Part shown: piece by piece, positions 358-45,482 of the stretch
Numbering within the stretch: the first letter of the stretch is position 1
Layout: each line of letters starts with the position of its first letter
Origin: Actinomycetes bacterium
Lineage (GTDB): Bacteria; Actinomycetota; Actinomycetes; JAHEKZ01
NCBI GenBank assembly: GCA_024644435.1
Contig: JAHEKZ010000012.1
Span: 1 to 52,941 of the forward strand
Length of the DNA stretch: 52,941 nt
Direction of reading: 5' to 3'
The notes under the pieces: generated by a model
Told to the model about the DNA's origin: nothing
The model's database searches: none
The model's input: only the letters and a program-made list of their open reading frames with translations
Position numbers and translations under genes: made by a program

Positions 358-1704
358 GTGAAGAGCGACGTCGAGACCCTGAGCCCGACCCGAGTGCGGC
401 TGTCAGTCGAGATTCCTTTCGACGAGCTACAGCCGAGCGTTGACTCCGCCTACAAGAAGATCGCCGCCCAGGTCACGATCCCAGGCTTTCGCAAGGGCAA
501 GGTGCCGGCTCGCATCATCGACCAACGTGTCGGACGCGGTGCGGTACTTGACGAGGCGGTCAACGAGGCACTCCCCAAGGCGTACGGAGATGCAGTCACG
601 GAGAACGAGCTCAAGGTGCTCGGCCAGCCCGACGTCGAGATTGGCGAGTTCGCTGATGGCGTTTCGTTGACGTTCACGGCCGAGGTTGACATCCGACCCG
701 CCATTGAGCTCCCCGACTTTGAGTCGCTCGAGGTCGAGGTTGACGTCGCTGAGGTCAGCGACGCCGACATCGACGCCGAGCTCGACCAGCTGCGCGAGCG
801 CTTCGCGACACTCAAGCCGGTCGACCGCGGAACGGCCACCGGCGACATGCTGTCGCTCACGCTGGCTTCCACCAAGGACGGCGAGCCGGTCGAAGACCTC
901 TCGGCCGCCGGGCTGACGTACGAGGCCGGCAGCGAGGGTCTGCTCCCCGGCCTCGACGAGGCCGTCATCGGCCTCAAGGAGGGCGAGGAGGGCACCTTCC
1001 TCGTGACGCCGGATGCCGGCGAGCACGAGGGCCAGGAGGTCGAGGTCACGGTCACCGTTGTCTCGGTCCGCGAGCGCGAGCTTCCCGAGCTGGACGACGA
1101 CTTTGCTCAGACGGTCAGCGAGTTCGACACGCTCGACGAGCTCCGCGACACGGTGCGCAGCGAGATCGAGCCTCGCAAGAAGGTTGAGCAGCTGATGGCC
1201 GCCCGAGACGCCGTGCTCGAGGCCTTGATCGCGGCTGTCGAGGTGCCACTTCCGGAAGGCGTCGTCGCCAGTGCCCTGGGCGACCACTTCGGCGATGGCC
1301 ACGGCGACGAGGCCCACAAGGAGGAGTTCGAGGCCCAGGTGCGCGACTCGTTGACCCGCGACATCGTCCTCGACACCCTTGCCGACCGCGACGACGTCGA
1401 GGTAAGCCAGGCCGAGATCACCGAGTACCTGATCCGCCAGGCTCCGCAGTACGGCATGACCCCTGACCAGTTCGCCCAGGCAGTTGCCCAGGCCGGTCAG
1501 GTCGGGGCCATCGTCGGTGATGTCCGCCGGTCCAAGGCCCTGTCCGTCGTCCTGGAACAGGCGACGGTCCGTGACTCCGCTGGAGAGCTCGTCGAGCTGT
1601 CGGCCACCTCTGATGACACCGAGACCGCAGAGGCGGCGATCGAGGCAGAGGCGACGGCCGAAGGAGAGACCGGCGAAGAGTCAGAGGCCGAGTCGCAGTC
1701 CTAG
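358..1704 (+). CDS. tig: Trigger factor, ribosome-associated chaperone and prolyl isomerase
   Basis: Trigger factor binds the ribosome exit tunnel, shields nascent chains and has peptidyl-prolyl isomerase activity. The 448-aa product has the N-terminal ribosome-binding domain with the signature GFRKGKVP near residue 45. An FKBP-type domain follows at about 150-240, then the helical C-terminal chaperone domain, and the protein ends in a highly acidic Glu/Ala/Ser tail typical of actinobacterial versions. The GTG start is supported by AAGGAG at 342-347. It leads directly into clpP1, clpP2 and clpX, the conserved folding and degradation neighbourhood. Confidence 0.97.
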
Positions 1705-1722
1705 GCGCTTTCTTCCGTCAGC

Positions 1723-1758
1723 GAACACCCCGGCACTTCGGATGGCGTCGGGGTGTTC
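1723..1758 (+). terminator. Stem-loop after tig
   Basis: GAACACCCCG (1723-1732) and CGGGGTGTTC (1749-1758) form a perfect 10-bp stem with a 16-nt loop just after the tig stop. There is no U-tract, so it is a hairpin terminator of the GC-rich actinobacterial type at best. Confidence 0.55.
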
Positions 1759-1764
1759 CGACGT

Positions 1765-1770
1765 TAGGGT
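1765..1770 (+). promoter_or_regulatory. Candidate -10 box for the clpP1-clpP2 operon
   Basis: TAGGGT lies just after the tig hairpin and 33 bp upstream of the clpP1 start, leaving a leader of about 25 nt that contains the ribosome binding site. I searched for the ClgR-type operator often seen at actinobacterial clpP genes and did not find a clear one. Confidence 0.45.
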
Positions 1771-1802
1771 CGACGTACGTCCTTGATGTGAAAGGTGGAC
1801 TC

Positions 1803-2462
1803 GTGACCGACAGCGCGACAACTGGCCTCCCACTGCCGTACCCGGGGTTGTCCCTGCCCGAGGCGCGGGCTCCCCAGTCTCAGGCCAACGGCTTCGACGA
1901 CTCCGTCTACCAGCGACTGCTGCGTGAGCGCATCATCTTCTTGGGCTCTCAGGTGGAAGACACCATCGCCAACGCCCTCTCGGCCCAGATGCTGCTGCTG
2001 GCAGCTGAGGACCCCGAGAAGGACATCTACCTCTACATCAACTCCCCAGGTGGCTCGGTCTCGGCCGGCATGGCGATCTACGACACGATGCAGTTCGTCC
2101 CGTGCGACGTCGCCACCGTGGCGATGGGGCTGGCGGCGTCCATGGGGCAGTTCCTGCTCTGCGCTGGGGCCGAGGGCAAGCGGTACGCGCTGCCACACGC
2201 GCGGATCATGATGCACCAGCCGTCCGGCGGCATCGGCGGAACGGCGTCCGACATCAAGATCCAGGCCGAGCAGATGCTCTACACCAAGAAAAAGATGGCC
2301 GAGCTGATCGCGACTCACACCGGCCAGCCCCTTGACGCCATCGAGTCCGACTCCGACCGCGACCGTTGGTTCACCGCCGACGAGGCCAAGGAGTACGGCT
2401 TCGTCGACCACGTCGTCAGCCAGGCGCGTGACGTCGCCGGCAGCGGTGGAACCAACGCCTGA
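1803..2462 (+). CDS. clpP1: ATP-dependent Clp protease proteolytic subunit 1
   Basis: This is a serine peptidase subunit of the ClpP1P2 chamber, which degrades proteins unfolded by ClpX or ClpC in the cytoplasm. The 219-aa product has the catalytic triad S113 (AASMGQ), H138 (MMHQPSGG) and D183 (ESDSDRDRW). An in-frame GTG at 1788 is possible, but GTG 1803 is preferred because AAAGGTGG (1791-1798) sits at the right distance before it. In actinobacteria the two ClpP types form a mixed tetradecamer, and the second subunit follows 46 bp downstream in the same operon. Confidence 0.95.
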
Positions 2463-2508
2463 CCCCCTGCGCTCTTCGACTCGACTTCGACGGAAGGACC
2501 CCACCACC

Positions 2509-3180
2509 GTGAGCAGCCCCAACAGACTGTGGAGCGCCAGCCCCACTGTCAGTGACGTCATTCGCTCTGCTCCGCAGGCGCGCTACATCCTTCCTGAGTT
2601 CCGCGAGCGCACTGCGCAGGGTGAGCGCCTGCACAACCCGTACACCAAGCTCTTCGAAGAGCGGATCATCTTCCTCGGTGTGCAGATCGACGACGCGTCA
2701 GCAGACGACGTGATGGCGCAGCTGCTCTGCCTCGAGTCGATGGACCCCGACCGCGACATCTCGATCTACATCAACTCGCCCGGTGGCTCCTACACGGCCA
2801 TGACGGCTATCTACGACACGATGCAGTTCATCAAGCCGCACGTGCACACTGTGTGCCTCGGCCAGGCTGCGTCTGCGGCCGCTGTTCTGCTGGCTGCGGG
2901 CAGTGCCGGCAAGAGGTCGGCGCTGCCGCACTCCCGGATCTTGATTCACCAGCCCTACACCGAGGGTGGTGGACAGGGGTCGGACATCGAGATCCAGGCG
3001 AACGAGATCTTGCGCATGCGCGAAGAGATGGAAGGCATCCTCGCGGCGCACACCGGTAAGACTCCTGAGGACGTCCGCAAGGACATCGAGCGCGACAAGA
3101 TCCTCACCGCCGACGACGCCAAGGAGTACGGCATCGTCGACCAGGTGATCAGCAGCCGCAAGAGCGCGGCGTCCGTGTGA
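2509..3180 (+). CDS. clpP2: ATP-dependent Clp protease proteolytic subunit 2
   Basis: This is the second ClpP paralogue and probable partner of ClpP1. The 223-aa product has catalytic S122 (GQAASAAAV), H147 ([11 protein letters not shown]) and D192 (VRKDIERD). The start is taken as GTG 2509, preceded by GGAAGGA at 2492-2498. The reading frame stays open further upstream, but that part only overlaps the end of clpP1 in another frame and is not homologous to ClpP. The gene is co-directional with clpP1 and clpX. Confidence 0.95.
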
Positions 3181-3339
3181 TTGTTCGGGGCTGATTGGGC
3201 GACTCGCCCGGCCTGACAGCGGGTAAAGCGCGCTCCGACGGGGTACCGTCGTCGGGTGCGACGCCCTCCGGGACGCCAGCACAGTTGTTCATGACCTTAG
3301 TTCTCCAAGTCGTCGGAGCCGGCCGAGCAAGGGAGTCAC

Positions 3340-4620
3340 GTGGCACGCATCGGTGAGAGCGGCGATCTGCTCAAGTGCTCCTTCTGCGGAAAGAGCCAGA
3401 AGCAGGTCAAGAAGCTCATTGCTGGGCCAGGCGTCTACATCTGTGACGAGTGCATCGACCTCTGCAACGAGATCATTGAAGAAGAGCTGTCAGAGTCGAC
3501 CGAGGTCACCTGGGACGAGCTGCCCAAGCCGCGCGAGATCTACGACTTCCTCGGTGAGTACGTCATCGGCCAGGACACCGCGAAGAAGGCGCTCGCCGTT
3601 GCCGTCTACAACCACTACAAGCGTCTGCGAGCCGGCGAGTCCGGACGCAAGACCGATGACTCCGTCGAGCTGGCGAAGTCGAACATCCTGCTGCTCGGCC
3701 CGACAGGTTGCGGCAAGACCCTGCTGGCGCAGACCCTGGCGCGGATGCTCAACGTCCCGTTCGCCATCGCCGATGCCACCGCGCTCACTGAGGCCGGGTA
3801 CGTGGGCGAGGACGTCGAGAACATTCTGCTCAAGCTCATCCAGGCCGCTGACTACGACGTCAAGAAGGCCGAGCAGGGGATCATCTACATCGACGAGATC
3901 GACAAGATCGCCCGCAAGAGCGAGAACCCGTCGATCACTCGCGATGTGTCGGGCGAGGGCGTGCAGCAGGCGCTGCTGAAGATCCTCGAAGGCACCACGG
4001 CGTCCGTACCGCCGCAGGGTGGACGCAAGCACCCCCACCAAGAGTTCATCCAGATCGATACCACCAATGTGCTCTTCATCGTCGGTGGTGCGTTCGACGG
4101 TCTCGAGCACATCATCAACCAGCGCGTTGGCAAGAAGGGCATCGGTTTCGGCGGCGAGATCGAAGGCAAGGCCGAGCGCGACGCCAAGGACATCTTCGGC
4201 CAGGTCAAGCCCGAAGACCTCGGCAAGTTCGGCATGATCCCCGAGTTCATCGGACGCCTGCCGGTGCTGACCGCTGTCCAGAGGCTGCGCCCGGAAGACA
4301 TCCAGCAGATCCTCACCGAACCGAAGAACGCCCTCGTCAAGCAGTACGTCAAGCTTTTCGAGCTCGATGACGTCGAGCTCGAGTTCACCGAGGATGCTCT
4401 GGAGGCCATCGCGGAGCAGGCCATCATGCGCGGCACTGGTGCGCGAGGTCTGCGGGCGATCCTCGAAGAGGTGCTCCTGGCCGTGATGTACGAGGTGCCG
4501 AGCCGCGCCGACGTGGCGCGCGTCGTCATCACGCGCGACGTCGTCCTCGAGCACGTGTACCCGACGTTGGTGCAGCGCGAGAAAGAGTCCAAGCGCGAGC
4601 GTCGCGAGAAGTCGGCCTAG
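3340..4620 (+). CDS. clpX: ClpX, AAA+ unfoldase of the Clp protease
   Basis: ClpX recognises tagged substrates, unfolds them with ATP and feeds them into ClpP. The 426-aa product has an N-terminal zinc-binding domain with four cysteines (C13, C16, C35, C38). Walker A is GPTGCGKT at 120-127 and Walker B is IIYIDEID at about 181-188. The ClpP-docking IGF-type loop is visible as GIGFGG. The start is GTG with AAGGGAG at 3329-3335. A 159-bp gap separates it from clpP2, so it may have its own promoter, although I found no convincing one. Confidence 0.97.
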
Positions 4621-39968: not shown

Positions 39969-40790
39969 ATGAAAGGACACAGGCGCCCCGACGGAGCGGC
40001 GGCCCGCGCCCGGCTGGAGGCGGCCATGCCCAGATGGATTCCGACGGACGCCGATCTGGTCGCGGCAGCTGGCGGTCGGCCGGTGGCCACGTCCCCGACA
40101 CCGCCTGAGACACGTGTCGCAGAGCCGTCGCGGCACACTCTCCCCGAGCCTCGCCGCCCGGCGTGGCGGTTGGACCCCGCCGCAGTCCGCGGGTTGGTCT
40201 CGCTCGCGCTGGCGGCCGTTGCCGGTGGCCTGGTGGTCGTCGTGGCCGGGTGGCCGCGCGGGACCCTGGTTCCGCAGGCGGATTCCCCGATCCCCGGGAC
40301 CTCTGCGACCGGCTCAGATCCGCAGAGTGTGTTGGTGCAACCGTCGCCGGCGATGTCGGGCAACGGTGAGGTCGTCGTCGTGGTCGACGTCGACGGAGCG
40401 GTGCGGCGTCCTGGAGTCGTGACGCTCCCTGACGGGTCGCGAGTGGTCGACGCCATCAAGGCGGCCGGCGGTCAGGCATCGAGGGCCGATACCGGGTCGC
40501 TCAACCTCGCTCAGGTACTGATGGACGGTGAACAGGTCATCGTTCCGAGGCGTGGGTCGCCTGGCCAGGCCGCGCCGCCCGGGGTCTCAGCCGCGCCGGG
40601 GTTGGTGAACCTCAACACGGCGACCGCGACCGAGCTCGAGACGCTTCCGGGCATCGGCCCGGTGCTGGCTGCCGCCATCGTTGACTGGCGCACGCAGAAC
40701 GGTGGCTTCACGTCGGTTGACCAGCTCGAGCAGGTATCGGGCATTGGGCCGACGACCTTCGCCGAACTGGCGTCGCTCGTGCGGGTCTAG
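39969..40790 (+). CDS. comEA: ComEA-like DNA-binding protein with SLBB and helix-hairpin-helix domains
   Basis: It is a membrane-anchored DNA receptor that hands DNA to ComEC in competent bacteria. The 273-aa product has a basic cytoplasmic N-terminus, one membrane span (about 78-98), an SLBB/ComE N-terminal-type domain (VVDVDGAVRRPGVVTLPDGSRVVDAI) and a C-terminal double helix-hairpin-helix (LNTATATELETLPGIGPVLAAAI, VSGIGPTTFAEL). The frame is open further upstream, but ATG 39969 fits the leaderless box. The comEC start overlaps its stop by one base. Confidence 0.9.
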   Translation: MKGHRRPDGAAARARLEAAMPRWIPTDADLVAAAGGRPVATSPTPPETRVAEPSRHTLPEPRRPAWRLDPAAVRGLVSLALAAVAGGLVVVVAGWPRGTLVPQADSPIPGTSATGSDPQSVLVQPSPAMSGNGEVVVVVDVDGAVRRPGVVTLPDGSRVVDAIKAAGGQASRADTGSLNLAQVLMDGEQVIVPRRGSPGQAAPPGVSAAPGLVNLNTATATELETLPGIGPVLAAAIVDWRTQNGGFTSVDQLEQVSGIGPTTFAELASLVRV

Positions 40791-43096
40791 TGCGCGAACG
40801 CGCCGAAGACCTGCGGCTCGCCATCCCCGCGGTGGCTCTGTGGGTGGGGTCCTGGTTCGGGCCTCTCGTGACGCCGCTGGCGACTCTCGTCACCGTTGCC
40901 GCCGGCGGTACCGCTTTGTTCACTGTTCGTCGACGGCTGACGCCTGAGGTGCTGGTGGGCTTGGCGCTGGTGCTCCTCGGGCTGGCATCGATGGGCCTGC
41001 GGGTTGCCCAGCGTGATGCTGGACCCGTCCACGCGTGGGCGCTGCAGCATCGAGACGTCGAGCTGTCTGGCGTGGTCACCGCCGATCCCGAGTTCAGCCA
41101 TCGGCAGTCGTTCGGTGGGTCCGGAGCCCTGCAGGTGCGGGTCACACTGCGCGCGGAAGAGGTGATTGTCGGCACCGAGTCGGTCGCAGCGCGGGTCTCG
41201 GTGCTGGTCGTGGGAGATGGCGACGGTTGGCGCGGCGTGAGCTGGGGCGACACCGTCTCGCTGTCGGGCTCGCTGCGTCCTGCACCCACGACGCGCCCTA
41301 TGGCGGCGTTCGTGTTCGCTCGTGGGTCGCCGCACCTCGAGTCATCGGCTCCACCGCCGGTCCAAGCGGCCGATGTCATGCGTCACGGTCTGCGCGACGC
41401 TGTCGAGGGCACCCGATCGGTCTCCCAACAGCTGCTGCCGGCGTTGGTCGTCGGCGACACCAGCGCGATGACTCCGCTGCTGACGTCCGACCTGAGAGAC
41501 AGCGGGCTGGCCCACTTGACGGCTGTCTCGGGAGCCAATGTGGCGATCGTGGTTGGCGCCGCCCTGCTGCTAGCGCGGTGGGCGGGTGCGCGGGGGTACG
41601 CCCTGGTCGGCATGGGGCTCGTGGTGGTCGTGTGGTTCGTCCTGCTGGCGCGACCGCAGGCGAGCGTGCTGCGAGCCGCCGTCATGGGTTCGATCGCACT
41701 GGTCGCGGTCGGGGTTGCCGGTCGACCGCAGGCGATTCGCACGCTGTTGGCCAGTGTTGTGGTCCTGCTGCTGGCGGACCCGTGGCTGTCCAGGTCATGG
41801 GGGTTCGCGCTCTCGGTGGCGGCAACCGCGGGACTCGTCCTGCTGGGCCGTCGCTGGAGCGACCGGCTACCAGGTCGGTGGCCGGCAGCCGTCCGCCAGG
41901 CCACGGCTGTCGCACTCGCAGCACAGGTGGCGACCTTGCCGCTGGTCGTGGCGTTGTCCGGCCAGGTGGCGCTGTTGTCGGTGGTGGCGAACCTTCTGGC
42001 TGCGCCGGCCGTCGCACCAGCGACCGTGCTCGGTGCCAGCGCCGCCGTGGTGTCTCCGGTTCTGCCCAAGCTGGCCGAGCTACTGGCCTGGTGCGGCCAG
42101 TGGCCAGCGGTGTGGATCGCCGCTGTGGCCCACCGGGCCGCCGTCGCGCCGGTGTCCACGATGCCGTGGCCTGGTGGCTGGGGTGGTGGTCTGCTGGGGA
42201 TCGGACTGCTCACTCTGGCTGTAGGTCTCGGGCACCTCGGCGTCCGATTCAGCTGGTGGCGGGCGCACCTGGTCATTCCTTTGGCTCTGGTCGGGGTGGC
42301 AGCCGTGGTCGCTTTCCTGTGGGGACCGGGGCGGTGGCCACCACCGGGGTGGGTACTGGTCGCCTGTGACATCGGTCAAGGAGATGCCGTGGTGGTGAAC
42401 CTGGGCGACGGCGCGGGGCTGGTCGTCGATGCCGGGCCTGACCCTGACCTGGTCGACCGGTGTCTGGACCGGCTCGGTGTCGACCGCGTTCCGCTGCTCG
42501 TCCTCACCCATTTCCATGCCGATCACGTCGGTGGCGTGTCCGGCGTCATCGACGGGCGATCGGTTGGTTCGGTGCTGGTCAGTCCTCTTCGTGAGCCCTC
42601 GGACCAAGTAGCTGAGGTGGCCGCGGCAACACGGGGTGTAGCGGTGACCGAAGCAGTGGTGGGCCAGACCGGGCACTGGGGTGAGGCTTCGTGGCGCGTC
42701 GTGTGGCCGGGCGAGGTGACGACGTCCGAGGGATCGGCACCGAACAACGCATCAGTGGTCCTGCTGGTCGAGGTGTCTGGAGTCAGCGTGCTGCTCAGCG
42801 GTGACGTCGAACCGGAGGCTCAAGCGGCACTCGTTGCTGAGGGGGTGCTGCCGCGCGTGGATGTTCTCAAGGTTCCGCACCACGGATCGAAGTATCAGGA
42901 CGAAACGTTTTGGCATGCGGTCGCTCCACGAGTCGCTGTCGTGAGTGTGGGCGCCGACAACACGTACGGGCATCCTGATCCCGACCTTCTGGCGTCGCTC
43001 TTGCGTGCGGGGATTCTCGTCGGTCGAACCGACCAAGACGGCTCGATCGCCGTCGTTGTCGAAGACGGCTGGTTGCGACTCGTCGATGATCCTTGA
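40790..43096 (+). CDS. comEC: ComEC/Rec2-like DNA uptake channel
   Basis: It is a predicted DNA-translocation channel. The 768-aa product has an N-terminal membrane region with a DUF4131-type domain, the ComEC competence domain (LTAVSGANVAIV and about ten membrane spans), and a C-terminal metallo-beta-lactamase-like domain with THFHADHVGG. GTG 40790 overlaps the comEA stop (TAGTG). The last 71 codons, from GGATCG at 42884, appear to come from an insertion: a second version of the same 3' end lies at 44237-44449 beyond an opposed EamA gene. The reading frame is intact. Confidence 0.93.
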   Translation: MRERAEDLRLAIPAVALWVGSWFGPLVTPLATLVTVAAGGTALFTVRRRLTPEVLVGLALVLLGLASMGLRVAQRDAGPVHAWALQHRDVELSGVVTADPEFSHRQSFGGSGALQVRVTLRAEEVIVGTESVAARVSVLVVGDGDGWRGVSWGDTVSLSGSLRPAPTTRPMAAFVFARGSPHLESSAPPPVQAADVMRHGLRDAVEGTRSVSQQLLPALVVGDTSAMTPLLTSDLRDSGLAHLTAVSGANVAIVVGAALLLARWAGARGYALVGMGLVVVVWFVLLARPQASVLRAAVMGSIALVAVGVAGRPQAIRTLLASVVVLLLADPWLSRSWGFALSVAATAGLVLLGRRWSDRLPGRWPAAVRQATAVALAAQVATLPLVVALSGQVALLSVVANLLAAPAVAPATVLGASAAVVSPVLPKLAELLAWCGQWPAVWIAAVAHRAAVAPVSTMPWPGGWGGGLLGIGLLTLAVGLGHLGVRFSWWRAHLVIPLALVGVAAVVAFLWGPGRWPPPGWVLVACDIGQGDAVVVNLGDGAGLVVDAGPDPDLVDRCLDRLGVDRVPLLVLTHFHADHVGGVSGVIDGRSVGSVLVSPLREPSDQVAEVAAATRGVAVTEAVVGQTGHWGEASWRVVWPGEVTTSEGSAPNNASVVLLVEVSGVSVLLSGDVEPEAQAALVAEGVLPRVDVLKVPHHGSKYQDETFWHAVAPRVAVVSVGADNTYGHPDPDLLASLLRAGILVGRTDQDGSIAVVVEDGWLRLVDDP

Positions 43097-43098
43097 GC

Positions 43099-43110
43099 AT
43101 GGCGCGCCAT
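43099..43110. repeat. 12-bp perfect palindrome after comEC
   Basis: ATGGCGCGCCAT lies directly after the comEC stop, in the gap between convergent comEC and EamA. It may be chance, or part of a short terminator or recombination site at the edge of the inserted segment. Confidence 0.35.
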
Positions 43111-43163
43111 AACCGGCATTCGAGGGCGGTCGGTTGTAGCCCGATACTCGCGGCAGGGACCCG

Positions 43164-44075
43164 TCAGCTGCGACGGAGCCTTGAACCGATCCGGACGAGG
43201 ACGACTCCTGCCAGGATCAGGGCAAGGGCCAGGAAGTCGGACACTACGACGGGGTCATTCGCGACGACGATGCCGATGACGAAGGCGACCACCGGCGGGA
43301 TGTAGGTGGCGCTCGATGCGGTTACCGCACCGAGTCGATTGATCAGCGAGTAGTACAAGAGGTAGGCGATGCCTGTGCCGAGGAGACCGAGGCCGAGGAC
43401 GAGGCCCCAGAAGGCGCGCGGCACGTCGACGATGTCGGTGAGCCCCGCCTTCGGTGTGACGATCAGGAGAATCAGGCACGCGATGACCATCTGATAAGTC
43501 GTCAGCGCCGTGGGCGGAATCGCCAGCCTGCTGAGGAAGCGCCGTGCGTAGACGAACGACAGACCTACGCTCGCCGAGCCCAGCACCATGAAAGCGACCC
43601 CGACACCGTCGATCCCGGAGGCCGCGTCCCACGGCCGCGCGATCAGTACGACGCCTCCGAGGCCGCACAGCACACCGACTAGCGCCAGACGGGTCACCGG
43701 CTCGGTGCGGAGGAAGATGCTCGTCGCGATGAACGCAACTAGCGGGATCATGCCGCTAAGCGCGCCAGCGATGGATGATGGCAGCCGCTGCGTCCCAGCC
43801 GCGAAGCAGAAAAAGTAGATCACCGTGGCGAGCAACGCCATGGCGAGGAAGTGCGGAGCGAAGCGGAGATGCTCACGCGAGAGGTCACGGCGGACTAGCG
43901 TCACGAGGAGGACCGGCAGGAATCCGAACAAGACGCGAAGGAGCACGATCTGGGCGGGTTCTATGACCTCCACAGCCCACTTCATGAACAGAAAGTTCGT
44001 GCCCCAGATCACGCCCAGCGCGACGAAGGCAACAGAGACCGCGACCGAGGGACGTGTCCGGTCTTTGATCACCAC
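43164..44075 (-). CDS. EamA-family (DMT superfamily) transporter
   Basis: The 303-aa membrane protein has ten predicted helices in two EamA repeats, beginning VAFVALGVIWGTNFLFMKWAV and, in the second half, MVLGSASVGLSFVYARRFL. These exporters or permeases move amino acids, metabolites or drugs; the substrate cannot be told. GTG 44075 fits the usual family length; GTG 44162 in the same frame would add 29 residues, and neither has a clear ribosome binding site. The gene points against its neighbours, interrupts the comEC-holA linkage and seems locally less GC-rich, consistent with transfer. Confidence 0.85.
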   Translation of the reverse strand: MVIKDRTRPSVAVSVAFVALGVIWGTNFLFMKWAVEVIEPAQIVLLRVLFGFLPVLLVTLVRRDLSREHLRFAPHFLAMALLATVIYFFCFAAGTQRLPSSIAGALSGMIPLVAFIATSIFLRTEPVTRLALVGVLCGLGGVVLIARPWDAASGIDGVGVAFMVLGSASVGLSFVYARRFLSRLAIPPTALTTYQMVIACLILLIVTPKAGLTDIVDVPRAFWGLVLGLGLLGTGIAYLLYYSLINRLGAVTASSATYIPPVVAFVIGIVVANDPVVVSDFLALALILAGVVLVRIGSRLRRS

Positions 44076-44236
44076 CAGATCATCTTCGTCGACGCGGCTT
44101 GCCGCTAGTGGCCACGCGGACAATGTCAGCCGCGCGGGCCGCTCCCTAGGCAAGAGCTCCACCGCCCTAGAAGTGCCGATAGGCGCGGGTCGTAACCTCG
44201 ACTGTCACTACCGGACACAGTCCCGCCGTGAGGTAC

Positions 44237-44449
44237 GGCTCGCGCTACCAGGACCAAGACTTCCTGCGCGCCGTGGGGGGTCAGGTGGCGGCGATCAGCG
44301 TCGGTGACGACAACCCCTACGGCCACCCCTCGTCAGAGCTGGTCGGTCTGCTTCAGGATTTCGGGGCGCTGGTTGCGAGGACAGACACCGACGGAACCGT
44401 GGCCGTGGTGCATGGTTCCGACGGCCTCCGGGTCGTGTCGCTTGGGTGA
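44237..44449 (+). pseudogene. Stranded 3' end of a second comEC
   Basis: These 70 codons (GSRYQDQDFLRAV to the stop) align without gaps to the last 70 residues of the intact ComEC, with 35 identities, and both end at the same point. The frame extends a few codons upstream to GTG 44228, but that part is not homologous and has no ribosome binding site. It lies 31 bp before holA, where the end of comEC would be expected. It is best read as the original comEC tail, displaced by an insertion, and probably not a functional gene. Confidence 0.82.
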
Positions 44450-44480: not shown

Positions 44481-45482
44481 ATGCTGACCCCGATGGCCAT
44501 CACACCGCTCACCGTGATCACCGGCAACGAAGAGTTGCTCATCGACCGCGCGCTCAAGGGGTTGATCGCCAGCGCTGGAGACGACGACATCGAGATCGTC
44601 ACGCTTTCGGCCCGAACGCTCCAGACCGGCCAGCTCGGGGTCTCAACGTCACCGTCACTGTTCGGCGGCACCCCTCTCGTGGTGGTCGATGGGGTCGAGA
44701 ACCTCGTGCTGTCCAACCCCGACGTGGCAGCGTCCCTCGACGAGGTCATGGCATACCTTTCGGCGCCGAACCCGGATGCCATGGTGGTGCTGGTCCACGG
44801 GGGCGGCAATGGCGGCAAAGGAGTGTTGACGGCGGCCAAGAAGGCCGGCGCTGCCACGATCAAGACGCCCACCTCGCCGTCAGGTAACGCGCTACGGCAG
44901 AACCGGGCGGAGTTCGTGAAGACCGAGCTGGCGGCGTTCCCATGCCATGCCGACCCGCAGACGATCGAAGTCCTCATCAATGCTGTCGGTACCAAGCTGC
45001 GTGATCTGTCGGGTGCCTGTGCGCAGCTCGTGAGCGACCTCGGCGTGGGCGGACTCCTCGATGAAGAGACGGTACGGCGCTACTACGGCGGCCGAGTCGA
45101 GGTTCAAGGATTCGACATCGCCGACCAGGTGCTGGCGGGCCGCATAGCCGAGGCGCTCGGGCTGCTGCGGCACGCACGCGAGTCCGGTGTCCCGGCGGTC
45201 CTGGTCACCGCCGCGTGCGGGCGGTCCCTCCGGCAGCTGGCGCTGGTTGCCACCTCGCCGAGGGGAGCCCCGGCCGACTCCGTCGCCGCTCTGTCCGGAG
45301 CGCCGCCCTGGAAAGTGAAGGATCTACGGGCGCTGGCTCGCGACTGGTCCGAGCCGGGACTGGCCTCGGCGATCACCGCGGTCGCCGTTGCCGATACCGA
45401 CGTCAAGACCGGAGCCATCGACCCCGAGTTCGCCCTCGAACGGATGCTGATCGCCGTCGGGCGCGCCCGAGGTCAGCGTTGA
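44481..45482 (+). CDS. holA: DNA polymerase III subunit delta
   Basis: It is the clamp-loader wrench subunit that opens the sliding clamp. The 333-aa product has the HolA N-terminal start ITPLTVITGNEELLIDRALKGL, a degenerate AAA fold without Walker A, and the helical C-terminal domain with VLAGRIAEALGLLRHARESGVPAVLVTAACGRSLRQL. ATG 44481 is supported by GGAGGGG at 44468-44474; ATG 44493 is a possible shorter start. It faces rpsT across a strong hairpin. comEC-holA-rpsT-lepA is a common actinobacterial order. Confidence 0.92.
   Translation: MLTPMAITPLTVITGNEELLIDRALKGLIASAGDDDIEIVTLSARTLQTGQLGVSTSPSLFGGTPLVVVDGVENLVLSNPDVAASLDEVMAYLSAPNPDAMVVLVHGGGNGGKGVLTAAKKAGAATIKTPTSPSGNALRQNRAEFVKTELAAFPCHADPQTIEVLINAVGTKLRDLSGACAQLVSDLGVGGLLDEETVRRYYGGRVEVQGFDIADQVLAGRIAEALGLLRHARESGVPAVLVTAACGRSLRQLALVATSPRGAPADSVAALSGAPPWKVKDLRALARDWSEPGLASAITAVAVADTDVKTGAIDPEFALERMLIAVGRARGQR

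Follow-up and report, generated by a model that had tools for sequence, protein, structure and literature searches.

A 1.35-kb cassette with a replacement 3' end in comEC of two congeneric actinomycetes

In an actinomycete draft genome, comEC is interrupted by a cassette of about 1.35 kb that supplies a foreign 3' end to the gene and leaves the native 3' end stranded behind a single cargo gene. The insertion is precise and loss-free, and the same cassette occupies the same codons in a second species of the genus, where it is much younger than the split between the two species. Its recent arrival at one and the same position in two related species suggests that the cassette is a very small mobile element that lacks any recognisable mover. 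The DNA analysed, referred to here as the window, is a whole contig of 52,941 nucleotides, one of 110 contigs in a genome of 2.53 Mb.

The comEC locus and its two tails

The locus was compared within the genus, across four genomes: that of the window, G001, G002 (JAHELE01) and G003. In the window it reads comEC, a reversed EamA gene, a copy of the comEC tail and holA, with the following features:

40790-43096, plus strand: comEC, a chimeric frame that runs in frame into a foreign tail of 70 codons
40790-42883, plus strand: comEC body, native as far as the HH of HHGS, with Competence and Lactamase_B domains
42882-42902, plus strand: left junction, attL-like, ACGG followed by donor ATCGAAGTATCAGGACG (comparison with G002 and with the empty site of G003)
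42884-43096, plus strand: foreign replacement tail of comEC, 70 codons and a stop (near-identity to G002, tail tree, GC content)
43164-44162, minus strand: cargo gene for an EamA/DMT-family transporter, start codon uncertain (PF00892, E=1.5e-38)
44163-44236, no strand: right end of the cassette, non-coding, nearly identical to G002 as far as the junction
44235-44255, plus strand: right junction, attR-like, donor TAC followed by native GGCTCGCGCTACCAGGACC (comparison with G002 and G003)
44237-44449, plus strand: stranded native 3' end of comEC (tail tree; co-linear with the uninterrupted gene of G003)
44481-45482, plus strand: holA, the native right neighbour (TIGR01128; directly after comEC in G003)

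An offset of 1,353 bp separates the attached tail (42884-43093) from its stranded counterpart (44237-44446). Each is 70 codons long; they align without gaps, share 35 of 70 residues (50%) and stop at the same point. A first-pass annotation of the window had described this alignment, and all its numbers were right. It had also placed a reversed EamA gene between the tails and the stranded copy 31 bp before holA, as is indeed the case (the stop of the stranded tail ends at 44449 and the holA ATG is at 44481). A whole-genome search matches the stranded copy to ComEC with E=1.9e-14, which excludes a chance match, and the copy alone matches the ComEC_Rec2 model (E=0.00035), falling below the full-length cut-off of that model. 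Judged by its sequence, it is a genuine ComEC C-terminus.

Which of the two tails is native? G003 offers an empty site, with an uninterrupted comEC, a single tail and holA 16 bp past the stop. When the flanks of the window are joined in silico they yield an uninterrupted ComEC of 768 codons, the last 169 residues of which align with the ComEC of G003 without an indel. In a tree of 51 tails, the stranded tails of the window and G002 cluster with the tails of G001 and G003 (support 97/88), whereas the attached tail falls outside this congener clade on a branch of 0.68, against 0.13-0.18. Therefore, the stranded tail is native, as the annotation had supposed, and the attached tail is foreign. The GC content of the attached tail is 0.61, compared with 0.70 for the comEC body. 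The checks that the annotation had proposed at the comEC-holA junctions of relatives and in a tail tree thus gave one tail in G003 and one, native, in G001, rather than both tails everywhere, and grouped the stranded tail, but not the attached one, with the congeners. As for the recent duplication that the annotation had ruled out, the tails are 50% identical and are not sisters in the best tree; forcing the two tails of the window together costs 9 log-likelihood units (AU p=0.23), so that sisterhood is not formally rejected.

The attached tail probably still has its position near the genus. Its best identities among 395 genomes of the class are 56-60%, with the genus on top and no donor among them; in phages and plasmids its matches are distant, of metallo-hydrolase or ComEC-like type, and do not exceed 60% identity. 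Several apparent tail matches were set aside. The phage records H5 and H11, considered as carriers of a lone tail, each contain a long gene; in G001 a second match proved spurious; and the matches in G133 and G246 are weak and lie inside other long frames.

The same cassette in a second species

The annotation had suggested looking for the cassette in other genomes, and it was found in G002: its presence at these very codons in a second species is new. Two G002 contigs carry it. C29 reads through comEC and ends in the attached tail, and C44 starts within EamA and continues through the stranded tail into holA. Both carrier genomes are drafts, and approximately 369 bp in the middle of the cassette are unassembled in G002. 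On either contig, a flank specific to G002 meets the cassette at the codons used in the window. Together with the empty site of G003, this bears out the view of the annotation that 1,353 bp were inserted at the Gly-Ser codons of the HHGS motif, restoring the reading frame. Duplication of the comEC end in place, or an assembly artefact, would account for tails that are tandem and co-terminal, and the two G002 contigs do end inside the cassette. However, only half of the residues of the two tails agree, the native tail clusters with those of the congeners, and species-specific flanks are tied to the cassette at identical codons, making this explanation very improbable.

Cassette and flanks differ sharply in their divergence. 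Past the junction (from 42890), the attached tails of the window and G002 are identical at 106 of 106 nucleotides, and the EamA parts present in both at 848 of 872 (97% in protein over 266 residues), while the comEC bodies are 85% identical. The attached tail, which differs by the junction base alone, has a synonymous distance of 0.04 and EamA one of 0.069, versus 0.61 for the comEC body, 0.88 for the stranded tail and 0.52 for holA outside the cassette (Fisher p <1e-16 for cassette versus flank divergence). The shift in identity occurs within a few bp of both cassette ends, and outside them there is no shoulder of raised identity. The low synonymous distance inside, the high distance in the flanks and the sharp edges mean that the cassette is far more recent than the divergence of its two hosts. 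By this comparison it either arrived twice or went from one species to the other, its ends being kept to the same codons.

Alternatively, the cassette could have been inserted once, long ago, in an ancestor shared by both species and later homogenised between them through gene conversion. This would explain the same site and the same cassette in sister species, and donor-like bases at the right junction of G002 (described below) show that some sequence was copied there. The conversion tracts would, however, need to stop exactly at both ends, as the high similarity reaches the very edges and is lost immediately beyond them, and we consider such a history improbable.

Neither a third carrier nor an autonomous relative was found in phages, plasmids, IMG/VR or the 395 genomes of the class. 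The cassette DNA has no match in phages, and in plasmids only EamA-level similarity, on two Microvirga plasmids. The cargo protein is a transporter of the DMT family (PF00892) and, at a guess from its family, may export a small metabolite. Its nearest relatives outside the genus are approximately 51-55% identical and belong to an actinomycete (G358) and to plasmids of Alphaproteobacteria; IMG/VR holds one relative of 53% identity, with no comEC tail nearby.

Junctions and the mode of insertion

The window has the left junction cac/GGATCGAAGTATCAGGACGAAACG and the right junction tac/GGCTCGCGCTACCAGGACC, where the slash marks the joint; in G002 these are cac/GGCTCGAAGTATCAGGACGAAACG and tac/GGATCGAAGTATCAGGACGCGGAG, and the empty site of G003 is cac/GGCTCGCGGTTCCAGGAC. 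Comparison of the three genomes shows that no native base was lost at insertion. The core common to both junctions is short in the window (ACGG, one mismatch, TCG), and in G002 18 of 19 bases are common to the two junctions. These sequences fit one crossover within ACGG in the window and a crossover after the third base in G002. Furthermore, the A/C difference at the Gly codon is reciprocal between the window and G002, a pattern that agrees with crossovers to the left and to the right of that base.

At the right junction of G002 (L065, position 3190, minus strand; G002:C44), 13 further donor-like bases, AAGTATCAGGACG, extend past the crossover expected from the left junction. One simple crossover does not explain them; they could be native sequence that is donor-like, the scar of an earlier insertion and excision, or a product of gene conversion.

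Other classes of element were rejected. For an IS or transposon, the best 20-nt match between the ends is 10/20 and the cassette has no transposase; for an integron gene cassette, there is no GTTRRRY core motif at either end and no integron integrase in the genome. A search of IMG/VR with the att-like pattern GGNTCGAAGTATCAGGACG gave four matches, all due to chance.

The probable explanation is that a circular cassette of about 1.35 kb, carrying a replacement comEC 3' end and moved in trans, inserted by a single crossover at the Gly-Ser codons of HHGS. The joint of the closed circle is predicted to be CGCCGTGAGGTACGGATCGAAGTATCAGGACGAAACG. One side of the joining site would be a diverged, 70-codon substitute for the comEC 3' end, and comEC would stay open after insertion because the joining site itself supplies this end, the native one being left beyond the reversed EamA transporter gene. 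Such a cassette would have entered the two congeneric species, or passed between them, at the same site and long after their divergence. It may be a CIME-like remnant or a minimal non-autonomous element, and it may be moved in trans by a site-specific recombinase of a helper element that is absent or missing from the assembly. That the attP side replaces a gene end is well established for integrases (PMC10111431, PMC6379469), and by analogy the loss-free, one-point insertion of a unit with a replacement gene end is the behaviour of integrases with internal gene targets. More tentatively, a minimal one-gene cassette with no recombinase may circulate between species in this way, inserting at the HHGS codons of comEC, sparing ComEC and being mobilised in trans; the right junction of G002 would then be the trace of an earlier insertion and excision.

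Against this explanation, the cassette contains no integrase, as the annotation had stated, nor any integration or transfer gene: EamA is the sole gene in 1.35 kb. The window genome assembly has only two tyrosine recombinases, which from their size and neighbours (DprA/sigma factor; ParA) are taken to be XerC- and XerD-like, and no large serine recombinase (PF07508). Among the other integrases of the genus that were inspected, none lies near a comEC tail.

It is also conceivable, though unlikely, that comEC-EamA DNA of a relative entered the cell, for example by transformation, and recombined by homology at HHGS and by microhomology at its other end, with the second species acquiring the DNA either from the first or from a shared donor. 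In favour of this, the attached tail is an authentic comEC 3' end, no stretch is more conserved than HHGS, a ComEC is encoded by the host, and no integrase is seen. However, a double exchange would replace the native tail, yet that tail is complete and lost no base; two events would need both ends to fall at the same codons; and transfer between species through flanking homology would raise identity outside the cassette, where none is seen. The annotation had named an element of the integrase type and held homologous capture to be equally possible. The balance now tips towards single-crossover insertion resembling that of site-specific elements: no native base is missing, and in either species identity falls off at these codons at both ends.

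comEC as a target and comparison with known systems

Other elements have reached comEC. In G041 (class family f19), comEC is split at the same histidine/glycine codons by a 44-kb element whose edge carries a large serine recombinase (G041:C4:91218-135461; L107 7001-8754); the comEC frame is broken and ends in a short foreign stretch, with no replacement tail. IMG/VR holds two contigs, L229 and L190, with a stranded comEC tail that starts at the same HHGS codons. The HHGS target is therefore recurrent, in support of the explanation proposed above. In the viral contig L229 (IMGVR_UViG_3300049568_000059, 2460-4092), the stranded tail has as its direct neighbour a large serine recombinase that shares 63% identity with the G041 enzyme, and the two appear to represent a family of recombinases that targets comEC. 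The tail of L190 (IMGVR_UViG_646564576_000002, 3990-4210) lies near the end of a 59.7-kb viral contig, with no recombinase in the stretch examined. In L207 (IMGVR_UViG_3300031449_000113, 1224-4216), the comEC motif next to a large serine recombinase is a different one, the conserved LTAVSGSN, and thus comEC may hold two targets for such elements. Among the inspected loci of relatives of the G041 recombinase in the 395 genomes, no other adjoins a comEC tail. Streptococcal phages have been reported in comEC (PMC4288039); in the literature searched, no paper joins comEC, "large serine recombinase" and integration.

The interval between comEC and holA often takes up genes. G001 has approximately 4 kb between its native comEC tail and holA (L063 732-4766; G001:C30), encoding an ISL3-family transposase and DUF1801 and DUF2510 proteins among others, and gaps above 0.9 kb are also present in G010, G019, G021, G028, G029 and G031.

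The closest parallel to the cassette lies in prophage e14 and the other icd islands of E. coli, which likewise insert in a conserved protein gene, provide a new 3' end in frame and displace the native end to the far side (PMC6379469, PMC10111431). The cassette shares both the in-frame replacement end and the displaced native end. However, those elements are large, carry an integrase and have nearly identical displaced and supplied ends, whereas the cassette has 1.35 kb, one cargo gene, no integrase and ends that are 50% identical in protein. It works like an icd/e14-type element but is not classed as a member because it has no integrase inside.

A cis-mobilizable element (CIME) keeps attL and attR and has lost its integration and transfer genes (PMC5704250). 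Here too, two joining sites at a gene end, putatively att sites, flank cargo with no recombinase or transfer genes. CIMEs are normally decayed from a larger element, whereas the same tiny unit is found here in two species; phages, plasmids, IMG/VR and the 395 class genomes yielded no ICE or IME that shares these joining sites. Integron gene cassettes are also single-gene mobile units that do not encode their own recombinase, but the present cassette has no integron core site, its genome has no integron integrase and its target is a gene body.

Differently to the cassette and its genome, the serine-recombinase elements in comEC carry a large serine recombinase, although they share the target gene and, in G041 and beside the tail of L229, the same histidine/glycine codons. 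The 44-kb element of G041 truncates ComEC, while the cassette keeps it open. As the target is the gene of a DNA-uptake channel, an element that keeps ComEC open and one that breaks it provide a contrast for the conflict between competence and mobile DNA. In annotation, the signature of such an event would be a gene end with a jump in between-species identity and a stranded homologous end nearby. Known elements that target 3' ends and repair the gene are kilobases long and carry an integrase; if the proposed mechanism is true, insertion with tail replacement is feasible even for a single-gene unit, with 1.35 kb and one cargo gene between flanks with a dS of 0.5-0.9.
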